A DNA stretch of 64,000 bases from Tepidiforma bonchosmolovskayae. GTDB lineage: Bacteria; Chloroflexota; Dehalococcoidia; Tepidiformales; Tepidiformaceae. The stretch spans positions 1,364,001 through 1,428,000 of the forward strand of contig NZ_CP042829.1 in assembly GCF_008838325.1 (NCBI RefSeq), read 5' to 3'. The stretch's first letter is position 1, and each line of letters starts with the position of its first letter. The notes under the pieces were generated by a model that saw nothing but the letters and a program-made list of their open reading frames with translations, made no database searches and had not been told where the DNA came from. Positions 34,789 through 49,641 of this stretch are shown here, in pieces. The position numbers and the translations under genes are program-made.

Positions 34789-36507
34789 GTGACCCTGCGC
34801 GCCGCGCTGCCCTTCGAACGCCCGTCCCTCCCGGCCCGCCCCTCCCTCGCCGAACTCCGCGCGAATGCAGTGGCCGGCATGGTGGCCGGGATTATCGCCC
34901 TGCCGCTCTCGATCGCCCTCGCCGTAGCGGTCGGCGTCCCGCCGATCGCGGGCCTGTACACCGCCGTTTTCGCCGGCGCCGCAGCCGCCATCTTCGGCGG
35001 CTCCCGCTACAACATCACCGGGCCCACGGCAGCGCTTGTACCGCTGCTCAGCCATGTCGTCCTCGTCCATGGCCCGGGCGCCCTGCCGATGGTCGCCCTC
35101 CTGGCCGGCATCATCCTCGTCGCCATGGGCGTATTCCGTTTCGGTCGGCTGGTCCGCTACATGCCCGGGACGGTCATCGTCGGGTTCACGGCCGGCATCG
35201 CTCTCTCCATCGCGTTCGGCCAGCTCAATGCCTTCCTCGGCGTGACCGGCACGAATCCCTCGCTCGAGCACTTCCACGAACGCACGCTCGATACCTTCGG
35301 CCACCTCTCGACGGTCGGCCTCACCACCCCGGCCGTGGGCCTCGCCTCGCTGGCCATCCTCATCGCCTGGCCCCGGTTCGAACGCCGCATCCCCCCGGCG
35401 CTGGTCGCCGTCGTCGCGGTCACTGCCGTCACCTGGGCGCTCGGGATCGATACCGCGACCGTGGCCAGCAAGTACGGCGACCTCCCGCGCGAATTCCCCC
35501 GCCCCTCGTTCGGCTTCTTCGACGCCGCGCTCATCCCCGACCTCATCCAGCCCGCTATCGCGGTCGCCATCCTCGGCGGCGTCGAATCGCTCCTCTCGGC
35601 CGTGGTCGCCGATGGCATGGCCGGTCAGCGCATCCGCCACGACCCCGACCGCGAGCTGCGCGGGCAGGGCATCGCCAACATCGTCGTCCCCTTCTTCGGC
35701 GGCATCCCCGCAACCGCGGCCATCGCCCGGACCGCCGCGAGCATCCGCGCCGGCGCCACCTCCCGCCTTGCCGGGGTCTTCCACTCGGTCACCGTCCTCA
35801 CCCTGACGCTCGCGCTCGGGCCGCTCGCCGGGCACATCCCGATGGCCACCCTCGCGGCCGTCCTCCTCATCACCGCCTGGAAGATTGCCGAAGTCCCCGA
35901 GGTCACCCGTCTCATCCGCCGGGCCCCGCGCGAAGATGTGCTCGTCCTCGTGGCCACCATCCTCATCACGCTCTTCTTGGACCTTACCTACGCCATCGGC
36001 TTCGGCGTCCTCGCGTCGACCATCCTCCTCGTGCGCCGGCTGGTGAACGTGCCCGCGGCCGCCGCCATGCTCCCCGACGCAAGCGGGCGGATTGCCCAGG
36101 TCTCCGACGAGCTCTCCGAGCTGATCAAGTCTCGGCCCGATATCGACTTCTTCACCGCCCAGGGCCTCCTGTCGTTCCACAGCGCGGCGTCGTTCGAATA
36201 CCAGCTCCAGGGCGACGCCCACCGCCCGCTCATCCTCCGGATGAAGGACGTCCACCACATCGATACCACCGGCCTCCTCACCCTCGAGGGCATCATCGAG
36301 CACCGGAAGCAGCACGGCGGCCGCATCATCCTCACGGCCATCCAGCCCGAGGTGCGCCCCGTGCTCGAGCGGTTCGGCATCATCGACCTCCTCGGGCCCG
36401 AGAACGTCTTCGAGCATACGAAGTGCGCCATCGCCAGCATCGACCACCCCGACCAGCCCCACCCCGAGCACGAGCAGGGCGCACACCGGCTCGCCCGCGC
36501 CGGGTGA
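34789..36507 (+). CDS. SulP-family anion transporter with STAS domain
   Basis: 572 residues from GTG 34789, with GGAG 8 bases ahead. Membrane part (~20-420) opens AELRANAVAGMVAGIIALPLS and has VGVPPIAGLYTAVFAG, FGGSRYNITGPTAA, and GGIPATAAIARTAASIRAGA. The C-terminal STAS domain (~455-560) has PLILRMKDVHHIDTTGLLTLEG. SulP proteins carry sulfate, bicarbonate, chloride or dicarboxylates. The gene lies under a c-di-AMP riboswitch, which suggests osmotic or ion control, so bicarbonate or another osmotically active anion is as likely as sulfate. Substrate not proven. Confidence 0.9.
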   Translation: MTLRAALPFERPSLPARPSLAELRANAVAGMVAGIIALPLSIALAVAVGVPPIAGLYTAVFAGAAAAIFGGSRYNITGPTAALVPLLSHVVLVHGPGALPMVALLAGIILVAMGVFRFGRLVRYMPGTVIVGFTAGIALSIAFGQLNAFLGVTGTNPSLEHFHERTLDTFGHLSTVGLTTPAVGLASLAILIAWPRFERRIPPALVAVVAVTAVTWALGIDTATVASKYGDLPREFPRPSFGFFDAALIPDLIQPAIAVAILGGVESLLSAVVADGMAGQRIRHDPDRELRGQGIANIVVPFFGGIPATAAIARTAASIRAGATSRLAGVFHSVTVLTLTLALGPLAGHIPMATLAAVLLITAWKIAEVPEVTRLIRRAPREDVLVLVATILITLFLDLTYAIGFGVLASTILLVRRLVNVPAAAAMLPDASGRIAQVSDELSELIKSRPDIDFFTAQGLLSFHSAASFEYQLQGDAHRPLILRMKDVHHIDTTGLLTLEGIIEHRKQHGGRIILTAIQPEVRPVLERFGIIDLLGPENVFEHTKCAIASIDHPDQPHPEHEQGAHRLARAG

Positions 36508-36579
36508 CACCTCCCCCTCGGAGCTCCGCACCCGCCCCCGCACGCTGACCCCGAACTTCACACGGAGGTCAGCACCCCC

Positions 36580-37467
36580 TTGGCACTCACCCTCATCGAA
36601 GCCGCGAAGCTCAGCAACGATACCCTCCTCGCCGGCGTCATCGAGACAATCGCGCAGGAAAGCCCCGTCCTCCAGCGCCTCCCCTTCATCGAAATCGTCG
36701 GCAACGGCCTCACCTACAACCGCGAGAATGTCCCCCCGTCCGCTGCCTTCTACGACGTCGGCGACGACTGGGACGAGAGCACCCCGACCTTCACCCAGGC
36801 CACCGCCACCCTCAAAATCCTGGGCGGCGACGCCGACATCGATAACTTCCTCAGGGCCACCCGCTCCAACCTCCAGGACCTCGAAGCCGCCATCGTCCAG
36901 CTCAAGGCGAAGGCCGTCCAGGCGCTCTTCGACGACACCTTCATCAACGGCAACGCCGCCGCCAACCCGCGCAGCTTCGACGGCATCGACCGCCTCTGCG
37001 ACCCGGCCCAGGTCGTCTCCATGGGCCCGAACGGCGGCACCCTCACCCTCGCCAAGCTCGATGAGCTGATCGACCGCGTCCGCGGCGGCAAGCCCGACCT
37101 CCTCCTCATGAGCCGCCGCTCCCGCCGCACGCTCAACGAGATCGCCCGCGCCTCCGGCGGCTTCCTCGAAGCCGACCGCGACGAGTTCGGCCGCATGGTC
37201 CAGTACTACGACGGCATCCCCATCGGTCTCAACGACTACATCGCCGATGACCAGGCCGTCGGCACGAGCACCGACTGCAGCACCATCTACGCCATGCAGT
37301 TCGGCGAGGGCGGCCTCGCCGGACTCACCGCCCCCGGCGGCCTCACTGTCGAGCGCGTCGGCAGCCTCGAAACGAAGGACGCCAGCCGCATCCGCGTGAA
37401 GTGGTACGCCGGCCTCGCCCTCTTCAACTCCGTCAAACTCGCCAAGCTCGTCGGCGTCCGCCCGTAA
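36580..37467 (+). CDS. HK97-type phage major capsid protein, solitary
   Basis: 295 residues from a TTG start, with GGAGG 11 bases ahead. The opening LIEAAKLSNDTLLAGVIETI, then ESPVLQRLPFIEIVGNGLTY, LKILGGDADIDNFL, KAKAVQALFDDTFINGNAA, FDGIDRL and YYDGIPIGLNDYI follow the pattern of HK97-gp5-like coat proteins of tailed phages. No delta-domain, protease or scaffold part is visible. Neighbours are a SulP transporter and a diguanylate cyclase; no portal, protease or tail genes lie beside it. GC and codon use match the chromosome. It could be a domesticated shell or a leftover from a phage or gene transfer agent. It does not resemble encapsulin. Confidence 0.75.
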   Translation: MALTLIEAAKLSNDTLLAGVIETIAQESPVLQRLPFIEIVGNGLTYNRENVPPSAAFYDVGDDWDESTPTFTQATATLKILGGDADIDNFLRATRSNLQDLEAAIVQLKAKAVQALFDDTFINGNAAANPRSFDGIDRLCDPAQVVSMGPNGGTLTLAKLDELIDRVRGGKPDLLLMSRRSRRTLNEIARASGGFLEADRDEFGRMVQYYDGIPIGLNDYIADDQAVGTSTDCSTIYAMQFGEGGLAGLTAPGGLTVERVGSLETKDASRIRVKWYAGLALFNSVKLAKLVGVRP

Positions 37468-37515
37468 CGGTCCATGCCCCGGCTGCGGCGGCGGGGTGAG
37501 CGGACCCGCCCCCGC

Positions 37516-39849
37516 CTACGCCGCCGCCAGCCGGTGGCGGCCCGCCTCCTTCGCCCGGTAGAGCGCCCGGTCCGCCGCCTCGTAGGTCACCGCGAGCGCA
37601 TCGAGCGGCCGATCCTCCGGGGCCGGCTGCCACGGCGCAAAGCCGCCGCTGATCGTCACCGTCAGCGCCTGGCCGCCCCCGACCGCCACCTGCTCCCGGG
37701 CGACTTCGCCCACGCACCGCAGCGCAATCTCCTTCGCCTCCGCGGCCGGCACCGTGAAGAACACCGCAAACTCCTCCCCGCCGATCCGCCCCACCATCCC
37801 GGCCTCCCCGACCGTCCCCTCCAGCCGCTGCGCCACCTCCCGCAGCACCACATCGCCCGCCGGGTGCCCGTACGTGTCGTTGATCGTCTTGAAGTAGTCG
37901 ATGTCGAAGATCGCGATCGCCGTCGGCGTGTGGGTCGCCGCCTGGTGGAACCACGCCCGCCGGTTCAGCGCCCCGGTCAGCGCATCGTGGTTCGCAAGGT
38001 ACTCCGCCTCGATCCGCAGCCGGTCCAGCTCTGCGGCCTGCTCCTCCAACGCCACCGCGTTCGCCCGCAGCACCTCCATCGTTTCCTCCATCTCCTCCTC
38101 CGCCCGGACGATGTCGGTGATATCCCGCGCCACGATGTAGCTCTCGTCATCGGTCACCGCCGAGGCGTTGAACGACACCCACCGCCAGCTCCCATCGGCG
38201 TGGCGGAAGCGCCCCCGCAGGTCGTGGGCGTCCCGCCCTTCGAGCACCGCCCGTGCCCGTGCAATCTGCTCCCCCCGGTCGTCCGGGTGGACGAAGTGCC
38301 ACAGGCTCTGCCCGATCAGCTCCTCCGGCTTCCATCCCAGCGTCCGCTCCCATGCGGGGCTCACCCGCTTGAACCGCCCGCGCCCCGTCACGATTGCCAG
38401 CATATCGATCGAATAGGCGAACACCCGGTCGCGGTCCCGCTCGGCCTCCCGCTCGGCCGTCACGTCCCGCCCGATGAAGACGAACCCGCCCGGCGCCTCG
38501 CCCGCCCCCGGCAGCGCCGAAATCGTCACCCAGATGGTCAGCTGCTCCCCATCCGGCCGCCGGTAGAGCCACTCCCGCTGGATGCTCACCCCGGGCCGCA
38601 GCTCCGCGATCAACGCCGCCAGCCCCCGGCCGATGCCCATCGCCGCCAGGTGCTCCACCGAAGGCAGCGCCCGCAGCTCCTCCGCGCTCAGCCCGAGGAG
38701 CGCCTCTGCTGCCGGGTTCGCCCGTGTGATCCGCCCCTGACCGTCCGTCGCAAGGATCGCCAGCCCCGCCCCGTCGAGAATCGCCCGCTGCAGCGCCAGC
38801 GCCTCCCCAAGCTCCGCCGTCCGCCGCGCCGCCAGCGCCTCCGCCCGCCGCCGCCAGGTGACCAGCAGCCACGCAGTCGCCGCCAGCAGCACGGTCAGCA
38901 GCGTCCCGGCCGCGCTCACCGTATCGGCCAGGGCCGCGTTGCTTGCCGGGAAGGCCGCTCCCGGCCGCACCTCCAGCCGCACCACCCTGCCCCCGAGCAC
39001 CGCCCGCCGCACGACCGTCTCATCACCGGCCCGGCCGCCGGTCGCGAACAGCGCCGGCCCGCCCGCGGCCCCGTCGTCGTACACCGTGATCTCCACCCCC
39101 GGCGCCATCATTCCCAGCGCCGTGCGGTAGAACTCGTCCCGCACGAATACTGCAAACACCCAGCCCGTCACCGCCCGCTCGCGCGCATCCGCCTCCAGCG
39201 GCGCGGGCCGCTCCCCGTACACCGGCACGAAGAGGATGAACCCCGCCGTCCCGTCCCGCACCAGCGGCACCGTCCCCGTCATCTGCATCGACCCGGACCG
39301 CGCCGCCGCCAGCGCCGCCGCCCGCTGCTCCGGCGCGCTATCGAACCGCACCCCCAGCGAACCCCGGTTCTCTTCCAGCGGCTCCACGTACTGCACCACC
39401 CACGCCGGCCCGGCCGCCGGCCCGCTCCCCGGCACCGGCCGCACCTCAACCGGCGTGCCCCCCGGCCCCAGCCGCGACGCAAACGCCGGCAGCTCCTCCT
39501 CCGGCACCACCGCCGCGTACCCCACCGACCGGAACCCGGGGTACCGCTGCGCCACCCGCATCCCCTCCACGAACCCCCGCCACTCGTCCGCCGTCACCTC
39601 CTCCGAGGCGCCGAAGAGCGCCGCCCCGCCGAGCAGCACGTCTTCGTACGCCTCCAGCCGCCCCTCCAGCCGCTGCACCGCCTGGGCGGCCTCCGCGTCG
39701 AGGTGCTCCCGGTCGCGCGCGGCGCCCTCCGCCCGGAGCTGCCCGGCCAGCACGGCCGTGGCGGCCACCCCCGCGACGGCCACCGCCAGCGGCAGCACCG
39801 GTCCCCGGCCCAGCGCCCGCAGCAGCCAGCCGAATCGGCCCCTTCGCAC
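37516..39849 (-). CDS. Membrane diguanylate cyclase, CHASE-PAS-PAS-GGDEF
   Basis: 777 residues from GTG 39849, chosen for its GGAGGGG site; ATG 39891 would add 14 residues. TM1 (~18-36), extracellular CHASE domain (~45-280, VTADEWRGFVEGMRVAQRYP), TM2 (~305-328), PAS1 (~345-455), PAS2 (~465-580, SPAWERTLGWKPEELIG, HPDDRGEQ), short coiled coil, GGDEF (~610-777) with HDALTGALNRRAW, DIDYFKTINDTYGH and the active motif RIGGEEF. It should make c-di-GMP in response to an outside ligand. It sits antisense between capsid and terminase genes and upstream of a large surface protein. c-di-GMP often controls attachment, so a link to that protein is possible but unproven. Confidence 0.92.
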   Translation of the reverse strand: MRRGRFGWLLRALGRGPVLPLAVAVAGVAATAVLAGQLRAEGAARDREHLDAEAAQAVQRLEGRLEAYEDVLLGGAALFGASEEVTADEWRGFVEGMRVAQRYPGFRSVGYAAVVPEEELPAFASRLGPGGTPVEVRPVPGSGPAAGPAWVVQYVEPLEENRGSLGVRFDSAPEQRAAALAAARSGSMQMTGTVPLVRDGTAGFILFVPVYGERPAPLEADARERAVTGWVFAVFVRDEFYRTALGMMAPGVEITVYDDGAAGGPALFATGGRAGDETVVRRAVLGGRVVRLEVRPGAAFPASNAALADTVSAAGTLLTVLLAATAWLLVTWRRRAEALAARRTAELGEALALQRAILDGAGLAILATDGQGRITRANPAAEALLGLSAEELRALPSVEHLAAMGIGRGLAALIAELRPGVSIQREWLYRRPDGEQLTIWVTISALPGAGEAPGGFVFIGRDVTAEREAERDRDRVFAYSIDMLAIVTGRGRFKRVSPAWERTLGWKPEELIGQSLWHFVHPDDRGEQIARARAVLEGRDAHDLRGRFRHADGSWRWVSFNASAVTDDESYIVARDITDIVRAEEEMEETMEVLRANAVALEEQAAELDRLRIEAEYLANHDALTGALNRRAWFHQAATHTPTAIAIFDIDYFKTINDTYGHPAGDVVLREVAQRLEGTVGEAGMVGRIGGEEFAVFFTVPAAEAKEIALRCVGEVAREQVAVGGGQALTVTISGGFAPWQPAPEDRPLDALAVTYEAADRALYRAKEAGRHRLAAA

Positions 39850-39971
39850 GCAGTCTCCCCTCCGGCGGAGTCGGCTCCGTCCTCTTTCCATACGTTTCGG
39901 CAGGAAATCGCCCCCGCTGGAGTGCCTCCCTGCCCTTGGCGCTCCGCCCCCGCCCCGGCCACCTTCGCCCC

Positions 39972-41285
39972 ATGGCCGCCCCGCTCCTCCGTCCCTACCA
40001 GCGCCGCGTCTTCCTCCCCCTCTGCCGCGGCCTGCTCACCGTCCGCCACGAGCAGTTCACCCTTCTCATGCCCCGCCAGTCCGGCAAGAACCAGCTCGCC
40101 GCCACCATCGTCACCGCCCTCCTCCTCGCCCACGCCCGCCGCGGCGGCAGCATCGTCATCTGCGCCCCCACCTTCCGCCCCCAGGCCGCCATCAGCCTCG
40201 AACGCACCCGCGCCATCCTCGAACCCGCCGCCCGCCGCGCCCGCCTCCAGCCCCAAATCGACGAGCACCGCATCCGCTGCGGCAACGCCGAAGCCGTCTT
40301 CCTCTCCGCCTCCGGCCATGCCCAGGTCGCCGGCCACACCGCCAGCATCGCCCTCCTCGCCGACGAAGCCCAGGACATCGACCCCGACTGGTTCGACCGC
40401 CAGTTCCGCCCCATGGCCGCCTCCACCGGCGCCCCCGCCCTCCTCTTCGGCACCCCCTGGGATGGCGACTCCCTCCTCGAACGCGCCATCGCCCGCAACG
40501 CCGGCCGCACCGCCGCCGGCCTCCCTCTCCACTACACCGTCTCCTGGCAGGAGGTCGCCCGCGACGTGCCCATCTACGGCCAGTATGTCGAACGCGAACG
40601 CCAGCGCCTCGGCGCCCAGAACCCCCTCTACCTCAGCCAGTACGAACTGATCGCCTCCCGCACCAGCGCCCGCCTCCTCTCCGCCGAGTCCCTTGCCCGC
40701 ATCGAAGGCGGCCACGCCCTGCTCGAAGGCCCCCGCGCCGGCGAACGGTACGTCGCCGGGCTCGACCCCGCCGGGACCGGCCCCGATGCCACCGTCCTCG
40801 CCATCGGCCGCATCCAGCCCGGGCGCCGCCTCGAAATCGTCGCCTTCGAAACCTGGCAGGGCGCCGACCTCGCCGGCTTCGCCCCCCGCATCGCCAGCAT
40901 CGCCGCCCGCTGGGGGCTCGAACGGCTCGCCATCGATGCCACCGGCCTCGGCCAGCCGCTCGCCGCCGCGCTCGAACCCCACCTCGGCCGCGCCCTCCTC
41001 CCCGTCGCCTTCAGCCAGCAGACGAAGAGCGCCCTCGGCTGGGAGCTCATCGCCGCCTGCGAAACCGGCCGCCTCGCCCTGCCCGCGCCCGCCGGCGGCG
41101 AACCCGACCTCCGCCAGTGCTGGGACGAACTCCGCGCCTGCCGCCGCAGCCTCCGCATCGGCGGCATCCTCCACTGGGAAGCCCCCGCCGGCCAGCATGA
41201 CGACTTCGTCGCCGCCCTCGCCCTCGCCCTCCACGCCGCCGGCGCCCTCCCCCAGGAGCGCACCGCCCGCGGCAGAAGGAGTTAG
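39972..41285 (+). CDS. Phage terminase large subunit, solitary
   Basis: 437 residues. The motor domain has adenine/Walker A region LMPRQSGKNQLAA (~33-45), IVICAPTFRPQA, Walker B with catalytic Glu IALLADEAQDID (~130), and coupling motif LFGTPWDG. The nuclease domain has the acidic triad GLDPAGTGPDATV (~260), AIDATGLGQ (~320) and QHDDFVAALALA (~415). Both activities look intact. There is no small terminase subunit, portal or tail gene nearby, and the capsid gene lies 2.5 kb upstream beyond the cyclase. ATG 39972 begins MAAPLLRPYQRRVF, the normal opening; a TTG at 39936 is less likely. Confidence 0.83.
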   Translation: MAAPLLRPYQRRVFLPLCRGLLTVRHEQFTLLMPRQSGKNQLAATIVTALLLAHARRGGSIVICAPTFRPQAAISLERTRAILEPAARRARLQPQIDEHRIRCGNAEAVFLSASGHAQVAGHTASIALLADEAQDIDPDWFDRQFRPMAASTGAPALLFGTPWDGDSLLERAIARNAGRTAAGLPLHYTVSWQEVARDVPIYGQYVERERQRLGAQNPLYLSQYELIASRTSARLLSAESLARIEGGHALLEGPRAGERYVAGLDPAGTGPDATVLAIGRIQPGRRLEIVAFETWQGADLAGFAPRIASIAARWGLERLAIDATGLGQPLAAALEPHLGRALLPVAFSQQTKSALGWELIAACETGRLALPAPAGGEPDLRQCWDELRACRRSLRIGGILHWEAPAGQHDDFVAALALALHAAGALPQERTARGRRS

Positions 41286-41286
41286 A

Positions 41287-41536
41287 AGGGAGGAGGGAGC
41301 CCCGTCCCCTCGCCAGCCGCCCCGCCCAGGGAAGAGGGAGCCCCGCCCCCTCGCCAGCCGCCCCGCCGAGGGAGGAGGGATCCCCGGCCATCCCTGCCGC
41401 CCCGCCGAGGGAGAAGGGAAGAGATGCTCACCCTGCTCCCTTCTCCCTCCTCCCTGGGGCGGAAGGGCGAGCGGCGGAGGGGCTCCCTCCTCCCTCCTCC
41501 CTCCTCCCCGGGGCGGCCGGGCGGGGCTCCCTTCTC
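41287..41536. repeat. Intergenic inverted repeat array A (type I core)
   Basis: Left arm: about four copies of GAGGGAGGAGGGAGCCCCG-type units with spacers CCCTCGCCAGCCGCCCCGCC. Core AAGAGATGCTCA at 41419-41430. Right arm: inverted units of the form CTCCCTCCTCCCTGGGGCGG and GGCGGGGCTCCCTTCTC. The arms can fold into a long imperfect hairpin. The array begins two bases after the terminase stop. Confidence 0.85.
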
Positions 41537-41550
41537 TAACAAAATTCCTA

Positions 41551-41580
41551 CTGACACGCATCAGGGTTTTCCCGTATCCT
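41551..41580 (+). promoter_or_regulatory. Sigma-70-type promoter for the large surface protein
   Basis: CTGACA (41551-41556), 18-base spacer, TATCCT (41575-41580). Transcription from about 41587 would give a leader near 260 bases before ATG 41848. Confidence 0.5.
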
Positions 41581-41847: not shown

Positions 41848-44800
41848 ATGACACTCGCACTCTACGGAAAGAGCCGACGGCGCCAGGGCGCGCTCCTTAC
41901 CGCTGCGCTCCTCGCCGTCATCATCGCAACCATCGGCGCCCTCAGCGCCATCACCAGCGCCTTCGCGCATTCGGCCACGGTTACCGGTACCGCAGTGTGC
42001 ACTTCAGGCGGCTGGAAGGTCGATTGGAAAATTACCGGCGATACGCCCTCCAAAAACATGCATATAACGTCGTTCACCGTTACGGGTGGAAGCACGACGA
42101 CCAGTCCAACCCCAAATCCGGTGCCACAAGGCACGAACCCTCAAACGGCGACAGCCCAGACCACCGGGATTGCGTTGAGTGTGTCGTCGGTAACCGCCAC
42201 GGCACAGGTGTACTGGATCAAGAACGACGGGAGCGACCGCTACCCGGCTAGTGGCACGAAGACATACACCAAAACGGTTCAGAAACCGTCGAACTGCGCC
42301 ACCATCATCATCAAGAAGGTCGTCGCCGGGCAGGGCGCCGACCCCAACGCCACCTTCACGGCTTCGGTGGACAACGAGGACGAGCCGGAGGGCGACGCCT
42401 CGAACCTCAGTTTCAGCCAGAACTCCCCGTACACCCACGTCTTCGGCGGCCACGGGTCCGATGACGACTTCATCGTCACGGAGACTGGCGTCGCCAGCGG
42501 CTACGAGGTCGTCGGGAGCTGGGAAGGCGAAGGCAACGCAACGTGCCCCCAGGTGGGCAGCAACGATTGGGACACGAGCACGGGCGGCGACAACCGGAAA
42601 AATCAGCAAAAGCAAAAGATCGAAGGCCTTGGCTCCGCGACGAAGACGGTCTGCTTCCTGAACGTCAAGGTCACCGCGAAAACGTGCAAAGACCTCGGCC
42701 TGCAGCTCATCGACAAGTTCAACCTCAACGGGAATTCCTACAACTGGGAAACGGACAGCGGCGGCCAGCAGGTGACCATCGGCGCCGGTTCCAACGCCAC
42801 CGGCGGCAACTGGACCTCGACCGTCTCGATCGGTGCGGTGATCGTCAAGGGGGGCAGCGGTCCAGTCGCGTACAAGGTCTTCCCCTTCCCGCCCCCGTAC
42901 CCTGCGGACACCTACGCGGGCAGCTTCGATAACAGCGGCCTGATCAACTGGGGCGGCAACACCCCGGCCGTGTCGCATGTCGAGTTCTGCCAAGGCACCA
43001 CCACGCCGAAGGGCACCCTCATCGTCGGCAAGGTGAAGGACCCGTCCGCCGGTGTACCGAACGCCGATGGCTCCCAGTTCTCCGGCACCGCCACCAACCA
43101 GGGGAACGCCGCTGTCATCAACTGGGGTCCTATCACGTTCAGCAGCTTCGCCACCCTCAGCAACACCCCGGCCGGCACCTACACCCTCGCCGAGACCAGC
43201 ACCCAGAACGGCTGGACTCCGTACGGCTGGGCGTCCGGCTCGCTCAACCAGCAGGGCCAGCCCGTCTGCCCGTCTGAAAAGAGCAGCTACACCGCAGGCA
43301 GCACGAAGTCGAACGTGCAGGTCAACAGCAACGCGACGACGGTCGTCTGTGTGATGAACACCAAGACGGCGCAAACCCCGTCGATCTCCAAGGCGAAGGC
43401 GTCCGATGGCTACTCAGGCGGCTACGCCTACTGGGAGATCGCCGTCGTTAACCCGGAGAACATCGCCCAGAACGTCCGGATTGATGACGCGAACGTCACC
43501 TTCGTCTCCGTCACCAACGGCAGCTGCAGTGACAGCGATTTCAGCGACGGCAGCATCACCTGCTCGGTCAACGCCAACAGCACGATGACCGTTAAGGTGA
43601 AGCGCGCCATCACCACGACCTGCCACGAGCAGACGGTCAACAACACGGCGACCGTGTACCTGCTGCCCGCGGTCGGCGGCAACCCGGTGAAGATCGGCGA
43701 CGCCGGCGGCACCGACGCCACCGCCTACACCATCCCCGGCGACGAATCGAAGTGCGGACTGCCCACCATCACCAAGACGGCGAACACCTCGCAAACGAGC
43801 GACCCGAACGCCATCTCGTGGACCGTCACCGTCACGAACCCCAACGGCACCAATGGCATCCAGCGCACCGTCTGGATCAAGGACCCGAACGTCACCGTCG
43901 TCGGCAACCCGACCTTTACCGGTGGCGCCCTGTGCCCCATACCGACCAACAGCTCCTTCGAGACTGAGCTCAACGGCAGCGGCGTCCCGTGCACCATGCC
44001 GGCCGGTTCGAGCATCACCTTCACGGTCAAGCCCGAGGACCAGCCGACCCGCACGTGCGAGCCGCAGAGCTTCACCAACACGGCATACCTCTACATCGGC
44101 TCCCAGACGTCGCAGCCGGTCACGGCTCAGGGCGACACCATCACCCTCTCGGGCGACCCCAGCCTCTGCACCCGCAACGTCACCATCTGCAAGGTCCTCG
44201 AGAACAACAACGACGGGATCGTCCGCTCCGGCACCATCTCCTTCGACGTCCGACCGCAGAGCAGCTCGCCAATCGCGGTACACATCAGCAACGTCACGGA
44301 AGGCCAGCAGACGGCGCCGTGCACCACGGTCCAGGTCCCGGCCAACAAGTCCTTCGACGTCGTCGAGTGGGCGAGCCGCCCGACCGGCTGGAACGGCGAC
44401 GAGTCTGGCTACCCGCAGTACCAGATCGGCGGCGGCACGAAGGTGTCGAACAACACCACCACGACGATCGCAGCCGGCAATGACCCCGTCACCATCACCT
44501 TCTACAACAAGGAGAAGCTGCCCGAGATCAAGGTCCGCTTCCAGAAGGTCATCTGCCCGAACTTCTCCGATGTGGCCATCAACCCCGGCGGCGGTGCCTA
44601 CGACATCGGCAAGCCCGTCTTCCCCGGCGGCGGCCTCCAGGGCCAGCTGAATCAGACCGCGGCGCCCCCCGACGGTAACGACATCGTCACTCCGTCGAAC
44701 GACGGCCGCAGCAGCAACTGCCACCTCTGGGGCGGCCCGGGCGGCCCGGGCGAATCCGGCGACTGGAACTTCTACCTGAAGTCCAAGGACGGCAGCTCGA

Positions 44801-47040
44801 CGCTCGCCACCATCGGCCACCCGGCGGGGCAGCAGTACGGCGAGCCTACGCTCACGGCCGAGCAGCTCCAGCTCGCCCTCCAGGCGAGCACCCTCCGCGT
44901 GGAAGAGGAGCTCCGCCCCGGCTACGCCTTCGCCGGCCTCAAGTGCTGGAAGGACCACCTGAACCAGGACAACTGGGAGTGGATCGACTTCTCGAATGGC
45001 CTCCCCGGCCCCAACGACACCGTCTGGTGCATCGCCTACAACGTCCCGTTCAAGACGATCACCATCCACAAGACGTTCTTCGGCGACTCCTCCATCACCA
45101 GCGAGGACTATCCGACCTTCACCCTGAGCCCGGCCCCGTGGACCGGTTGGGAGTTCAACCAGTACTGCACCGTGATAACGGCAGGCACGCCGTATGGCGG
45201 CGGGGTTGGTGTGGCGTGGTCGTGCACCGTGCCCGCCAGCTGGGCCGGTTCGGTCACCGAGACGCCCGCCGCCGGCTGGGAGATCTGCCCCGCAACGTTC
45301 CAGGTCGGGAACGGTGGTATCCCGGTCACCTACGACTACTCCTTCCTGAACTGCAAGAAGAGCAGCATCGTCGTCAAGAAGGTCGTGACCAACGTCGAGA
45401 ACGACACCACCCAGTTCACCGTCACCCTCAGCGACGGTAGCCAGTCGTCGCAGACCGGCCAAATCGCCGAGTGGAACGGCTCCGGCCCGGTGAACGCCAC
45501 CTTCGGCAACCTCTCGCCGAACACCACCTACACCATCACCGAGGGGCCGCAGAACGGCTACCAGGTCCTCGGCTGGGCACTCGCCAACGAGAACGGCACC
45601 TGCCCGGCTCAGCCGGCGAACACCGGTGCCGTCGCCCAAGTGGCGCCAAAACCCGGCGCATCGGCGGTGGTCTGCTTCTATAACGAGCGCTTCGGCAACG
45701 TGGTCGTCGACAAGGCCGTCTCCACCAACACCGCCACGCCGGGCGTCCCCTTCACCTGGACGATCACGGTGAGCGTCGCCGACGGCCCGACCTCCTCGGC
45801 CCTCACCCTCACCGATACCCTGCCGCCGGGCTTCACCTACGGCAGCCCGTCGGCCACGTCGCCGCTGAGCTGCACGCTCACCGCGGGCCAGCTCTCCTGC
45901 ACCCTGCCGCAGAACACGCCCATCGGCACCTACACGGTGACCATCCAGGCCACCGCGCCGACCGGCACGTTCACAATCTGCGGCGGGCACACCAACACGG
46001 TCAGCTTCTCCGGCGCCGGCATCGAAGGCACTGACTCCGCCACCGTGACGGTGGGCTGCGTCGCCAGCGACGGCACCATCCTCGTCCGCAAGGTGGTCCT
46101 CGGCCAGCCCGGCGATACCACCCAGTTCACCGCCGGGCTCACCGGCCCAGGCATCGAGGGCACCGCCACGCAGCCGTTCAGCCAGCAGCTGGTCGGCATC
46201 TTCCCCGGCCTCGCGGCAGGCACCTTCACCGTCAGCGAGCAGCCGCAGGGCGGCTACCAGTACGCAGGCTGGGCCTACGGCACCATCGTGGGCAACCAGG
46301 TGCAGTGCCCGGCGCAGCCGACCAGCAGCGCCGCCAGCACGGACGTCACGCTGACGAACACCTCCCCGCTGGCCGCCGTCTGCTTCTACAACGAAGCACG
46401 GGTCACGATCCGCGTGGAGAAGGTGCTCAACGTCATCGGCTTCACCAACCCCGGCCCAGGCTGGCAGTTCACCCTCACCGGTTGCGGCATCACCCCGCAA
46501 ACGAAGACGACCGATGCGAACGGCGTGGCGGAATTCACCGACCTGCCGCCGGCGATCGGCTGCCAGTACACGGTGACCGAGACGGTGCAGGCCGGGTGGA
46601 CGCCGCAGTTCGTCTCCCAGACGGCTGCACCGACGCAGGGCGGCCAGGGCGTCACGCTCAAGTTCCTCAACATCCGGGTGTACGACCCGCCGTGCGTGGA
46701 CCCGAGCGACCAGCGCTGCCAGCCGCCGGTGACGACGACGCCGCCGACCACGCCGCCCACGACGCCGCCCACCACCACGACCCCGCCGACGACGCCGCCG
46801 ACGACGGTGACGCCGCCGACGAACACGCCGACGCCGACGCCGACGAACACGCCGGTGACGCAGGTCGCGGGTGAGAAGACGCCCGGGCCCGGCGCCTCGC
46901 CGACGCCGCTGGCGCCGTCGACGGGCTACGGCTTCGGCGGCGCCCAGGGCGGCATGAGCCTGCTGCTCGTGCTCGCCGGCCTCATCAGCCTCAGCCTCGG
47001 CCTCGGGTTCATCGCCCTCGGCCGGCGCACCAACCGGTAA
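41848..47040 (+). CDS. Giant secreted surface protein with SpaA/DUF11-like repeats and C-terminal anchor
   Basis: 1730 residues. Signal peptide ~15-41 (LLTAALLAVIIATIGALSAI, AFAHS). Repeated beta domains that open with a K-V-V strand occur at ~151 (TIIIKKVVAGQG), ~1172 (SIVVKKVVTNVE), ~1410 (GTILVRKVVLGQPG) and ~1520 (VTIRVEKVLNVIG), each ending near VCFYNE or FLN. They resemble SpaA/prealbumin-like pilin and adhesin modules. A DUF11-like unit lies near 1281-1400. A Thr-Pro stalk (~1630-1675) leads to LAPSTG (~1688), a membrane helix and RRTNR, like a sortase signal but with an atypical motif. GC is lower than in neighbours, especially near the N-terminus, and Asn/Thr are frequent. Probable adhesin or sheath protein; no sortase gene is visible here. 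Confidence 0.82.
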   Translation: MTLALYGKSRRRQGALLTAALLAVIIATIGALSAITSAFAHSATVTGTAVCTSGGWKVDWKITGDTPSKNMHITSFTVTGGSTTTSPTPNPVPQGTNPQTATAQTTGIALSVSSVTATAQVYWIKNDGSDRYPASGTKTYTKTVQKPSNCATIIIKKVVAGQGADPNATFTASVDNEDEPEGDASNLSFSQNSPYTHVFGGHGSDDDFIVTETGVASGYEVVGSWEGEGNATCPQVGSNDWDTSTGGDNRKNQQKQKIEGLGSATKTVCFLNVKVTAKTCKDLGLQLIDKFNLNGNSYNWETDSGGQQVTIGAGSNATGGNWTSTVSIGAVIVKGGSGPVAYKVFPFPPPYPADTYAGSFDNSGLINWGGNTPAVSHVEFCQGTTTPKGTLIVGKVKDPSAGVPNADGSQFSGTATNQGNAAVINWGPITFSSFATLSNTPAGTYTLAETSTQNGWTPYGWASGSLNQQGQPVCPSEKSSYTAGSTKSNVQVNSNATTVVCVMNTKTAQTPSISKAKASDGYSGGYAYWEIAVVNPENIAQNVRIDDANVTFVSVTNGSCSDSDFSDGSITCSVNANSTMTVKVKRAITTTCHEQTVNNTATVYLLPAVGGNPVKIGDAGGTDATAYTIPGDESKCGLPTITKTANTSQTSDPNAISWTVTVTNPNGTNGIQRTVWIKDPNVTVVGNPTFTGGALCPIPTNSSFETELNGSGVPCTMPAGSSITFTVKPEDQPTRTCEPQSFTNTAYLYIGSQTSQPVTAQGDTITLSGDPSLCTRNVTICKVLENNNDGIVRSGTISFDVRPQSSSPIAVHISNVTEGQQTAPCTTVQVPANKSFDVVEWASRPTGWNGDESGYPQYQIGGGTKVSNNTTTTIAAGNDPVTITFYNKEKLPEIKVRFQKVICPNFSDVAINPGGGAYDIGKPVFPGGGLQGQLNQTAAPPDGNDIVTPSNDGRSSNCHLWGGPGGPGESGDWNFYLKSKDGSSTLATIGHPAGQQYGEPTLTAEQLQLALQASTLRVEEELRPGYAFAGLKCWKDHLNQDNWEWIDFSNGLPGPNDTVWCIAYNVPFKTITIHKTFFGDSSITSEDYPTFTLSPAPWTGWEFNQYCTVITAGTPYGGGVGVAWSCTVPASWAGSVTETPAAGWEICPATFQVGNGGIPVTYDYSFLNCKKSSIVVKKVVTNVENDTTQFTVTLSDGSQSSQTGQIAEWNGSGPVNATFGNLSPNTTYTITEGPQNGYQVLGWALANENGTCPAQPANTGAVAQVAPKPGASAVVCFYNERFGNVVVDKAVSTNTATPGVPFTWTITVSVADGPTSSALTLTDTLPPGFTYGSPSATSPLSCTLTAGQLSCTLPQNTPIGTYTVTIQATAPTGTFTICGGHTNTVSFSGAGIEGTDSATVTVGCVASDGTILVRKVVLGQPGDTTQFTAGLTGPGIEGTATQPFSQQLVGIFPGLAAGTFTVSEQPQGGYQYAGWAYGTIVGNQVQCPAQPTSSAASTDVTLTNTSPLAAVCFYNEARVTIRVEKVLNVIGFTNPGPGWQFTLTGCGITPQTKTTDANGVAEFTDLPPAIGCQYTVTETVQAGWTPQFVSQTAAPTQGGQGVTLKFLNIRVYDPPCVDPSDQRCQPPVTTTPPTTPPTTPPTTTTPPTTPPTTVTPPTNTPTPTPTNTPVTQVAGEKTPGPGASPTPLAPSTGYGFGGAQGGMSLLLVLAGLISLSLGLGFIALGRRTNR

Positions 47041-47123
47041 CGTCCCGGCCGGCAGCCGCCGGCCCCGGTGACCCACCCCGAGGCCCCGGGAACCCCTCCC
47101 GGGGCCTCGCCGCGTCCCAGGGA

Positions 47124-47477
47124 TGAGGGAGGAGGGAGCCCCGCCCATCCCTTCCGCCCCGCCGAGGGAGGAGGGAGCCCCTCTCCTCCCGTCCTCCCCG
47201 CCGAGGGAGAAGGGAACCCCGCCCATCCCTTCCGCCCCGCCGAGGGAGGAGGGAAGAGATGCTCACGCTTCTCCCTCCTCCCTTCTCCCTCCCTGCTGGG
47301 GCGGGGCCGCGCGGACGCGGGGTTCCCTTCTCCCTCCTCCCTGGGGCGGCGGCCTGGGCGGACGCGGGGTTCCCTTCTCCCTCCTCCCTGGGGCGGCGGC
47401 CTGGGCGGACGCGGGGCTCCCTCCTCCCTCCTCCCTGGGGCAGGGCCGGGGCGGAGGCGGGGCCTCCCTCCTCCCTC
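47124..47477. repeat. Intergenic inverted repeat array B (type I core)
   Basis: Left arm: four GAGGGAGGAGGGAGCCCCGCCC-type units with spacer ATCCCTTCCGCCCCGCC. Core AAGAGATGCTCA at 47254-47265, the same 12 bases as in array A. Right arm: CTCCCTCCTCCCTGGGGCGG followed by GGACGCGGGGTTCCCTTCTC-type units, repeated nearly identically three times (period ~60). It fills the gap to the oxidoreductase gene. Confidence 0.85.
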
Positions 47478-47483
47478 TAAACT
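47478..47483 (+). promoter_or_regulatory. -10-type box for leaderless Gfo/Idh gene
   Basis: TAAACT, 6 bases before ATG 47490, directly abutting the end of repeat array B; no ribosome binding site. Confidence 0.55.
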
Positions 47484-47489
47484 ACGTCC

Positions 47490-48527
47490 ATGAGCACCAT
47501 CCGCATCGGCCTCATCGGCGCGGGCGCCAACACCGCCGCCCAGCACATCCCCGGCTTCCGCCGCATCCCCGGCGTCGAAATCGTCGGCGTCGTCAACCGC
47601 ACCCCCGAGAGCTCCCGCCGCGTCGCCGACCAGTTCGGCATCCCGCGCGTCTTCGAAAGCCCCGAAGCCCTCTGCGCCGACCCCGAAATCGACGCTGTCT
47701 GCATCGGCACCTGGCCGTACAAACACCGCGACTACACCATCATGGCCCTCGAAGCCGGCAAGCACGTCCTCTGCGAAGCCCGCATGGCGATGGACCTGCC
47801 CGAGGCGCTCGAGATGCTCGCCGCCGCCCGGCGCCACCCGGAACTCGTCGCCCAGCTCGTGCCCGCCCCGTTCGATTTCCGCCTCGGGCCGACGATCACC
47901 CGGCTCATCGCCGAAGGCGCCCTCGGCGAAGTCCGCGAAGTCACCGTCCGCGTCCTCAACGGGCAGGGGCTCGACCCCCACGCCCCGCTTCACTGGCGGC
48001 AGCGGCGCGACTACTCCGGGCGAAACGTGCAGATGTTTGGCATTTACGTCGAAATCATCGAGCGGTGGCTCGGCCGCCACGCCGGCAGCGTCACCGCCGA
48101 CGGCGCCATCCTCATCCCCGAGCGGCGCGACCCCGAGACCGGGCAGATGGCGCCTGTCACCGTGCCCGATACGTACGTTGTCTGCGGCGAGCTCGCCCGC
48201 GGCGCGCGCATCACCTACCACCTGAGCACGATGGCCGCCGGCGCCGAAGCGAACGGCATCGCCATCCACGGCACGAAGGCGGTGCTCCGCTGGCACCCCG
48301 GCGACACTGCGGAGATCGTCCCCTTCGGCCAGCAGCACGGCCACGCCATCGAACCCGACCCCGGCACCGACCGCGGCTGGCGGGTCGAAGAGGACTTCAT
48401 CGCCTCCATCCGCGAGGGCGCACCCGTCCGGCTTACCAACTTCGAAGACGGCGTCGCGTACATGCGCGTCGTCGATGCCGCCCACCGCAGCTGGGAAGAA
48501 GGCCGCCGCCTGCCCCTCGGCGAGTAA
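47490..48527 (+). CDS. Gfo/Idh/MocA-family oxidoreductase, non-canonical catalytic motif
   Basis: 345 residues. N-terminal NAD(P)-binding RIGLIGAGANTAAQHIPG, then a C-terminal beta domain. The family oxidises or reduces sugars and cyclitols. The usual E-K-P motif after the third strand reads HVLCEARMAMD, so the catalytic Lys is replaced. The late His region is not obvious. It may be a divergent or structural member. Substrate unknown. It is bracketed by repeat arrays B and C. Confidence 0.82.
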   Translation: MSTIRIGLIGAGANTAAQHIPGFRRIPGVEIVGVVNRTPESSRRVADQFGIPRVFESPEALCADPEIDAVCIGTWPYKHRDYTIMALEAGKHVLCEARMAMDLPEALEMLAAARRHPELVAQLVPAPFDFRLGPTITRLIAEGALGEVREVTVRVLNGQGLDPHAPLHWRQRRDYSGRNVQMFGIYVEIIERWLGRHAGSVTADGAILIPERRDPETGQMAPVTVPDTYVVCGELARGARITYHLSTMAAGAEANGIAIHGTKAVLRWHPGDTAEIVPFGQQHGHAIEPDPGTDRGWRVEEDFIASIREGAPVRLTNFEDGVAYMRVVDAAHRSWEEGRRLPLGE

Positions 48528-48873: not shown

Positions 48874-49185
48874 CTACTCCCAGTACCTCCTCCCGAACAG
48901 CTCCTCCGCCAGCCCCGCCTCCTCTGCATCGCGCGGGGGCAGGCCGTGCATCGCCAGCCCCAGCACCTCCGCCTCCCGCAGCGTCCGGTCCCGGTCGAGC
49001 GGCGCCTGCCCGGCGGCGAACACCACCCGCAGCGCCGCGATGATCGCCTGCGCCCGCGGCGGGTCGCACTCCTCCCGCCAGAGCGCATCGATCACGTTCC
49101 ATGCCGCCGCCAGCGGGTCGCGCTCCGAAACCGGCCGCCGGCGGCGGGCGCCCGGCTCCCCCTTCGTGCGCCGTTCGATCGCCAT
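48874..49185 (-). CDS. Hypothetical small protein, divergent from SOS-box regulator gene
   Basis: 103 residues from ATG 49185. A basic N-terminus (RRTKGEPGARRRRPVSER) is followed by a helical domain (AAAWNVIDALWREECDPPRA, REAEVLGLAMHGLPPRDAEE) and a WE-terminated tail FGRRYWE. I do not know the family. The longer upstream frame runs through the divergent regulator and is a shadow. The SOS-like box at 49291 lies 106 bases upstream, so it might be damage-controlled. It ends next to array C. Confidence 0.5.
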   Translation of the reverse strand: MAIERRTKGEPGARRRRPVSERDPLAAAWNVIDALWREECDPPRAQAIIAALRVVFAAGQAPLDRDRTLREAEVLGLAMHGLPPRDAEEAGLAEELFGRRYWE

Positions 49186-49290
49186 GGCCCCAGCCTCGCG
49201 CCCGCCCCGGCCCATCCCCCACCCCCGGCTGGCACCCGCGGCACCTGCTGACGACTTCGCGCCCCGGCGCCAGCCGGCACTTGGCACGAA

Positions 49291-49306
49291 TAGAACATAC
49301 GTTCTA
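49291..49306. promoter_or_regulatory. SOS (LexA) box-like palindrome
   Basis: TAGAACATACGTTCTA: outer arms TAGAAC/GTTCTA form a perfect palindrome around ATAC. GAAC-N4-GTTC is the core of Gram-positive/actinobacterial LexA operators. It lies 39 bases before ATG 49345 and 106 bases before the divergent start at 49185. Confidence 0.65.
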
Positions 49307-49344: not shown

Positions 49345-49641
49345 ATGTCTGAGCCGCTTCCCCGGCCCGCCCGCTGCGACGCCCTGCCCGAGCACACCGA
49401 CTACCGCGATACGGGCTGCGACCTCGCGCCCTCCTGCCTCGCCTGCCCGCTGCCGCAGTGCCGCTACGACCTGCCCGGCGGCCTCGCCGCCATGCTCCGC
49501 TCCCGGCGCGATGCCGCCATCGCCGATGCCGTCCGCCGCCGCCACCTGCCCATCGACGATGTCGCCGAAATGTTCGGCCTCTCCCGCCGCAGCGTCTTCC
49601 GCGCGCTCCGCCGCGTCGAACGGCCGGGCCGGCAGCAGTAA
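49345..49641 (+). CDS. Small Cys-rich helix-turn-helix DNA-binding protein
   Basis: 98 residues from ATG 49345 with GAGAGGGG ahead. The N-terminal half has Cys residues in GCDLAPSCLACPLPQCRYD (~33-51), likely a metal-binding knuckle. The C-terminal half has a helix-turn-helix (RRRHLPIDDVAEMFGLSRRS, then VFRALRRVE). I infer a DNA-binding regulator. The adjacent LexA-like box suggests SOS control. Small regulators of this kind are known around prophages, and a phage capsid and terminase lie 8-12 kb away, but this link is inference. Confidence 0.65.
   Translation: MSEPLPRPARCDALPEHTDYRDTGCDLAPSCLACPLPQCRYDLPGGLAAMLRSRRDAAIADAVRRRHLPIDDVAEMFGLSRRSVFRALRRVERPGRQQ

Follow-up and report, generated by a model that had tools for sequence, protein, structure and literature searches.

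Genes for a phage-type major capsid protein and for the large subunit of a terminase (TerL) lie among cellular genes on the chromosome of Tepidiforma bonchosmolovskayae, and the question raised by this locus is what they are doing there. The chromosome is a single contig of 2.75 Mb which carries the window, i.e., the whole stretch of 64,000 nucleotides that was analysed. The original prediction, made from sequence alone, had reported an HK97-type capsid gene and a TerL gene with full ATPase and nuclease motifs, host codon use, an antisense diguanylate cyclase between the two and no portal gene in the window. It had called the pair solitary and had left three options, namely a domesticated packaging shell, a split gene transfer agent (GTA), or the remains of a prophage under selection. 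Each of these observations held, and both genes are genuine, while the label solitary failed: partners of the pair, a portal among them, are found elsewhere in the same genome, and two more members, the small protein c73 and a Zn-ribbon/HTH (Zn/HTH) protein, are found inside the window (Table 1).

The capsid protein matches the epsilon15 gp7 family of NCBIfam (NF045672, MCP_gp7_epsi_15, E 3e-61) and the major head family PHROG 212 (E 3e-73), with a weaker match to Pfam PF05065 (E 1e-8). TerL matches PF17289 (E 7e-13) as well as terminase families of PHROG, and its Walker A (PRQSGKN) and Walker B (LLADEAQ) motifs and its three acidic nuclease sites (D265, D322 and D410/411) are kept in essentially all 29 orthologues. 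The third-position GC of 0.93-0.94 is host-like and the window genes that surround the two are cellular, with no integrase or replication gene seen among their neighbours. The closest known phages share at most about 40% identity with the capsid and about 30% with TerL. The criterion for an intact prophage, which is that capsid and terminase lie beside genes for portal, tail, integration and regulation, is not met. As a separate observation, TerL is directly followed by the gene of a surface-like protein of 1730 amino acids with DUF11 and SpaA-type domains (window 41848-47040), which has a counterpart at the equivalent place in another genome of the genus (G022). GC-rich repeats of the type CCCGCCCCGAGGGAGGAGGGAG occur at 41290-41560 and 47070-47490 of the window and also upstream of the portal gene at 1288 kb.

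Table 1. Features of the dispersed set in T. bonchosmolovskayae. Window positions are counted from the first letter of the window; C1 positions are record coordinates of the chromosome.
Feature	Position	Strand	Remarks
Shared element before capsid	window 36504..36527	+	GTGACACCTCCCCCTCGGAGCTCC; 76 bp before start; 24.0 bits, best in 359 kb
HK97-fold major capsid protein, epsilon15 gp7 type	window 36580..37467 (C1 1400580)	+	TTG start, 295 aa
CHASE-PAS-GGDEF diguanylate cyclase	window 37516-39891	-	between capsid and TerL
Shared element before TerL	window 39922..39945	+	GTGCCTCCCTGCCCTTGGCGCTCC; 50 bp before start; 18.8 bits, fifth-best in 359 kb
Terminase large subunit TerL	window 39972..41285 (C1 1403972)	+	ATG start, 437 aa; ATPase and nuclease motifs intact
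c73, small helical protein	window 48874-49185	-	103 aa; same regulon; small-terminase candidate, unproven
Shared element before c73	window 49212..49235	-	GTGCCAGCCGGGGGTGGGGGATGG; 50 bp before start; 14.2 bits
SOS (putative LexA-type) box	window 49292-49305		AGAACATACGTTCT; between c73 and Zn/HTH gene, 53 bp before the latter
Zn-ribbon/HTH putative regulator	window 49345-49641	+	98 aa; homologous gene precedes the portal in compact clusters
SU10-type adaptor	C1 1202163-1202759	+	Pfam SU10_adaptor PF24175, 1.1e-9
OB protein	C1 1213014-1213223	-	adjoins hub
Baseplate hub (predicted)	C1 1213223-1215169	-	by the fold of a homologue
Scaffold	C1 1225186-1225548	+	head scaffolding PHROGs, weak match
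Holin-like candidate pair	C1:1253028-1253407 (L501:8028-8407)	-	two overlapping small membrane-protein genes, 56 and 70 aa
SPP1-type portal	C1 1288447-1289709	+	Pfam SPP1_portal PF05133, 4.8e-23

The partners were found by way of compact clusters. A viral-contig search in IMG/VR gave short contigs with capsids of 53-75% identity, and the genes called on them comprise a small terminase, TerL, a Zn/HTH gene, portal, scaffold, capsid, small proteins, adaptor, a hub-like protein and a small OB protein. The original prediction had proposed a search of the rest of the genome for portal and tail loci; with profiles built from the compact-cluster proteins, genes for portal, scaffold, adaptor and tail hub were indeed found. 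Each homologue (portal, adaptor, scaffold, hub and OB protein) is present in single copy and apart from the others, with only the OB gene adjoining that of the hub. Altogether, at least eight separate transcription units (adaptor; hub with OB protein; scaffold; holin-like pair; portal; capsid; TerL; the divergent c73 and Zn/HTH pair) are spread over about 211 kb, or 7.7% of the chromosome. The genes and their dispersal are directly shown. Eight units placed at random would all fall within so short a stretch with a probability of about 1e-7 (our own rough estimate, n times w^(n-1)), indicating that the scatter is local, which fits insertion and rearrangement within an old cluster. When the position of the replication origin was looked for, the DnaA match of this genome fell below the cut-off.

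A separate prophage, apparently complete and of siphovirus type, lies at C1:417388-445000 (L162, L163) and has an integrase, terminase, portal, protease and HK97 capsid of its own. It was considered as the source of the scattered genes and rejected because its genes belong to different families.

The hub is recognised by no family library, and its assignment is a prediction that comes from a homologue (L063). In an AlphaFold2 model of this homologue (pLDDT 95), the C-terminal half is predicted to have the baseplate-hub fold of Mu gp44, T4 gp27, VgrG and the hubs of injection machines and extracellular contractile injection systems (eCIS), with Foldseek E values of about 1e-13 to 1e-15 and TM scores by target of up to 0.70. 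The same search also matches beta-propeller lectins of Photorhabdus and a neuraminidase-like protein; these matches were assigned to the N-terminal half, which is predicted, on the homologue, to be a lectin-like beta-propeller. The Tepidiforma hub aligns with L063 over nearly its entire length at about 27% identity. The particle predicted from these models would consist of a head and a neck, with a short tail tip for binding receptors. In the own genome, nothing was recognised as a tail tube, tape measure, sheath or endolysin. A scaffold gene of another locus (L123:3279-4289) has an N-terminal fused domain resembling a prohead protease, which suggests that the protease was lost in other lineages.

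The inheritance of the set was followed in a sample of 38 genomes of the order. The capsid gene is present in 30 of them, normally in single copy and with 76-99% identity, and TerL in 31, with about 50-57% identity outside the genus. Regarding synteny in relatives, one of the checks originally proposed, both genes are conserved but scattered: in many cases they lie on separate contigs or tens of kb from each other, their neighbours differ between genera, and the whole set recurs, likewise scattered, in about 30 of the 38 genomes. The pair was not seen inside a complete prophage in any relative from the order that was examined, and it is not strain-specific and decaying, as its frequency and the purifying selection described below show; either finding would have refuted the original prediction.

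The set is under purifying selection and co-diverges with RecA. Mantel correlations among the divergences of capsid, TerL, portal, adaptor and hub range from r 0.65 to 0.96, and those of the same five genes with RecA from r 0.70 to 0.88 (all p 0.001), while the capsid and portal trees recover the genus clades. Within the genus, dN/dS, a further check that had been proposed, is below 1 for all genes, with 0.01-0.18 for the capsid, 0.06-0.16 for the portal and mostly 0.2-0.4 for the others. For TerL it spans 0.18-0.66, the values of 0.57-0.66 coming from more distant same-genus pairs in which dS is unusually low. The genes are also absent together. Of the 22 genomes of high quality, G027 has none of the eight genes, which its sister species do have, and G010 is left with one of the eight, the regulator gene; this near-complete joint absence is shown for both, and a genome without at least six of the eight arose in only 184 of 100,000 permutations.

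These data bear on the possibility that the genes are old prophage remains, broken by rearrangement and drifting. It is supported by G010 and G027, which have lost nearly everything, by genomes that appear to be decaying, such as G035, which has no capsid and only a fragment of TerL, and by the raised dN/dS of TerL in the more distant pairs. Nonetheless, drifting remains would not be expected to persist across the order and in 168 of 394 genomes of the class, to be under purifying selection, or to keep the motor and nuclease residues and a common promoter element. This explanation is, therefore, very unlikely and already largely refuted. Prophage remains under selection, as originally suggested, are likewise unlikely given the age and the shared regulation of the set.

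The class-wide count refers to the sampled genomes of Dehalococcoidia, in which the capsid profile was found in 110 of 233 genera, usually in one copy; the named loci with the capsid are almost all from Dehalococcoidia or Chloroflexota MAGs. Across the class, the gene order ranges from compact operons, as in single-contig genomes of 1.7-2.1 Mb (L417-L422), by way of clusters with cellular genes between their members, to the full scatter of the Tepidiforma order. In one of the genomes with a compact operon (1,686,510 bp), two transposase copies lie between scaffold and capsid (L422:7397-9558). Many of the short IMG/VR contigs filed as viral (L062-L141) have the cluster beside cellular genes, and these contigs are likely to be chromosomal fragments of Dehalococcoidia. 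The viral filing of the compact versions is what would speak for a phage satellite, or a split phage, that moves between hosts. Against it stand the single copy, the lack of any integrase or replication gene seen adjoining, the absence of a close phage relative, a divergence that parallels RecA and the fact that genes spread across 211 kb cannot move as a unit, all of which make a mobile element very unlikely.

The dispersed genes also share a promoter element. The bipartite element GTGMCA-N8-CTTGGMGNT precedes all six structural genes (capsid, TerL, portal, adaptor, hub and scaffold) across the order, at a characteristic distance of about 50 or 70-80 bp from the start. A common promoter motif was sought by exact k-mers within the own genome only, without any result above the control; the gapped element was first spotted by eye in the six own-genome regions and then obtained de novo together with the orthologues. 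In the 125 non-redundant upstream regions of the six genes across the order, its log-likelihood is 894, against about 80 in shuffled sets. When the element was learned from five genes and applied to the sixth, with the 99% quantile of random windows as the cut-off (1% expected), it was recovered before the capsid in 21/23 cases, TerL in 8/24, portal in 18/19, adaptor in 24/24, hub in 22/24 and scaffold in 9/11, TerL having the weakest element of the six. The own-genome scan with the position weight matrix (PWM) covers 359 kb and not the whole genome. Six of its seven top scores are those of the six structural genes, and the site ranked sixth precedes the pair of small membrane proteins at 1253 kb.

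Genes outside the training set have the element too. It scores above 10 bits in 18 of 30 orthologues of c73, compared with 2.3% of random windows. It also precedes the small membrane pair, a possible holin-like candidate; pair and element are both conserved within the genus, in G026 and G022, and G033 has a matching pair of similar small membrane proteins. In G037, the element (23.2 bits) lies before a gene of 201 amino acids without a family match (L522:2096-2701), which by eye is possibly a cell-wall hydrolase. In the 20-kb stretches examined from other genera, all high-scoring sites close before a gene belong to members of the set. Outside the order, the element is nearly confined to the scaffold (7/51), with one case before the capsid (1/74) and none before other genes (0/866).

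That the genes were captured separately, from different phages and for unrelated purposes, might be argued from their being unlinked and on both strands. However, each of them matches one and the same compact cluster found elsewhere in the class, their divergences correlate, and one promoter element is common to all, so that separate captures are all but excluded.

The divergent gene pair inside the window may be where the set is switched. The 98-residue Zn/HTH protein matches PF13384 (HTH_23, E 1.5e-5) and the compact-cluster gene (BLAST E 3e-21), and more weakly PHROG 836, a late transcriptional activator (E 0.0025). With a cut-off of E<=0.01, 32 of the 38 genomes have its gene, a few of them by weak matches; G010 has kept it without all else, G025 lacks it, and in G015 the match is no more than weak. 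Given the weak match to a late activator, and given that its homologue precedes the portal in compact clusters, this protein is a candidate activator of the regulon; this role is inferred, without binding data. The other gene of the pair, c73, is present in most capsid-bearing genomes and missing in G010, G017, G023 and G027, and most of its orthologues have an N-terminal zinc motif. That c73 is a proven small terminase was not supported by profile comparison with the small terminases of compact clusters or by a fold search, which gave no match for it, and so it remains only a possible candidate for this function. Both genes are broken in G022, an assembly with frameshifts even in recA (G022:C1:48114-48885, three frames), indicating that these breaks may be sequencing errors.

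Upstream of the Zn/HTH gene, the palindrome AGAACN4GTTCT occurs in 30 of 30 genomes, perfect in 22 and with one mismatch in eight, at 47-103 bp before the start; it is perfect in only 20 of 6000 random windows. The presence of this SOS box before the regulator gene is shown. Its identity as a LexA site is inferred, without binding data, from its form, which is that of a Gram-positive-type site, and is supported by the enrichment of the palindrome before recA (11/30 at one mismatch or fewer versus 56/6000 random windows, 0.9%). A Dehalococcoides LexA is known to bind a site of this kind. In loci mostly outside the order (L352-L436), the box precedes 13 of the 38 scaffold genes at the head of a transcription unit, as against 10 of 443 other genes in that position. 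SOS induction of the set through the regulator is likely, with the link between regulator and element being, like the LexA site, inferred.

From these observations, the capsid and TerL genes are likely units of a domesticated and vertically inherited tailed-phage head and minimal-tail system of the class Dehalococcoidia, GTA-like and, in Tepidiforma, fully dispersed, for which particle production, packaging of host DNA and transfer are inferred. The split GTA is, therefore, the favoured of the three original options, and it is supported. The retention of TerL, portal, adaptor and hub makes a bare shell unlikely; with the scaffold also kept, an encapsulin-like use was rejected as the main reading. 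In the proposed mechanism, DNA damage would inactivate LexA by cleavage and release the Zn/HTH gene, whose product would act at the common element and bring about the joint expression of the dispersed late genes. Scaffold and capsid would build the head on the portal, TerL would package chromosomal DNA, with c73 as a possible small terminase, and the short tail (adaptor, hub with its lectin-like propeller, OB protein) would deliver the DNA to kin, the particles being released by the holin-like proteins.

Three criteria of a GTA in the ICTV definition of viriforms (PMC9662315) are met: the proteins derive from caudoviricetes (capsid, TerL, portal, adaptor, scaffold and hub), the genome is endogenised, often at several loci (here at least eight units over about 211 kb), and it is inherited vertically and co-diversifies with the host (RecA Mantel correlations, genus clades). 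The definition also has it that a GTA cannot fully package its own genome and that mostly random host DNA is packaged and delivered (PMC9662315). A gene span of 211 kb would far exceed the capacity of the head, should the particle have one of epsilon15 size. Delivery to other cells is a possibility that only the lectin-like hub suggests, and it is inferred.

The structural evidence is equally compatible with a domesticated particle, filled with DNA or empty, that does another job, such as killing of kin, DNA disposal or interference with phages. A lectin-like hub would suit a killing particle, and bacteriocins are commonly under SOS control too. Nonetheless, TerL with its intact motor and nuclease, the portal and the scaffold are all kept in the regulon and would not be needed by a bacteriocin or a shell, making such a particle unlikely compared with a GTA. 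Within the GTA reading, a bolder version, towards which we lean only slightly, is that the agent has existed since early Dehalococcoidia and that, in the Tepidiforma order, it was dismantled to single-gene units which would survive as a regulon alone, with one SOS-switched Zn/HTH activator and one promoter element recruiting all structural genes.

In the open-access literature searched, with subscription papers and preprints outside its scope, no GTA is described for Dehalococcoidia, SAR202, Chloroflexota, Tepidiforma or Dehalogenimonas. If the GTA reading is true, this would be the first one traceable in the phylum Chloroflexota and the most dispersed known. The known GTAs come from few lineages and were found through searches for compact clusters, to which the dispersed Tepidiforma set is invisible. 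The set suggests an endpoint of domestication in which phage genes have become ordinary, separately placed chromosomal genes bound by regulation alone, and the class-wide series from compact operon to full dispersal allows the process to be studied. Under this reading, DNA damage would be expected to induce gene exchange among the uncultured and organohalide-respiring bacteria of a major group, and many of the short "viral" contigs in public collections would be of chromosomal origin.

Among known systems, the head modules of epsilon15, SU10 and SPP1 are alike in capsid (NF045672), adaptor (PF24175) and portal (PF05133), respectively, but no intact phage has close homologues of the Tepidiforma set, and no linked genes for replication, integration or a tail tube were seen with the latter. 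The hubs of contractile tails and injection machines (Mu gp44, T4 gp27, VgrG, eCIS) share the C-terminal fold predicted for the Tepidiforma-type hub, which differs from them in the predicted N-terminal fusion to a lectin-like beta-propeller and in the absence of sheath and tube genes among those seen. The type I GTAs of alphaproteobacteria resemble the Tepidiforma set in that their head genes derive from tailed phages, are inherited vertically and belong to systems spread over several unlinked loci. They have a dedicated activator of these loci, for which Tepidiforma has a candidate. The agent of Rhodobacter capsulatus (RcGTA) is encoded at five unlinked loci (PMC9662315), and that of Caulobacter (CcGTA) has a main cluster with auxiliary loci, the LexA-like repressor RogA controlling its activators GafYZ (PMC9632790). 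In CcGTA, however, the main cluster holds 21 genes and only accessory loci lie apart, whereas in Tepidiforma nearly each structural gene is a unit of its own and there is no main cluster. Tepidiforma also differs from the alphaproteobacterial agents in its epsilon15 gp7 capsid, SPP1-type portal and SU10-type adaptor, and in a predicted Zn/HTH regulator behind a canonical-looking SOS box. BhGTA (VSH-1) of Brachyspira is likewise a domesticated tailed-phage particle, whose genome is believed to be spread across several loci (PMC9662315). It belongs to a different phylum, and in Tepidiforma the dispersal reaches down to single genes, with a shared promoter element that is shown.
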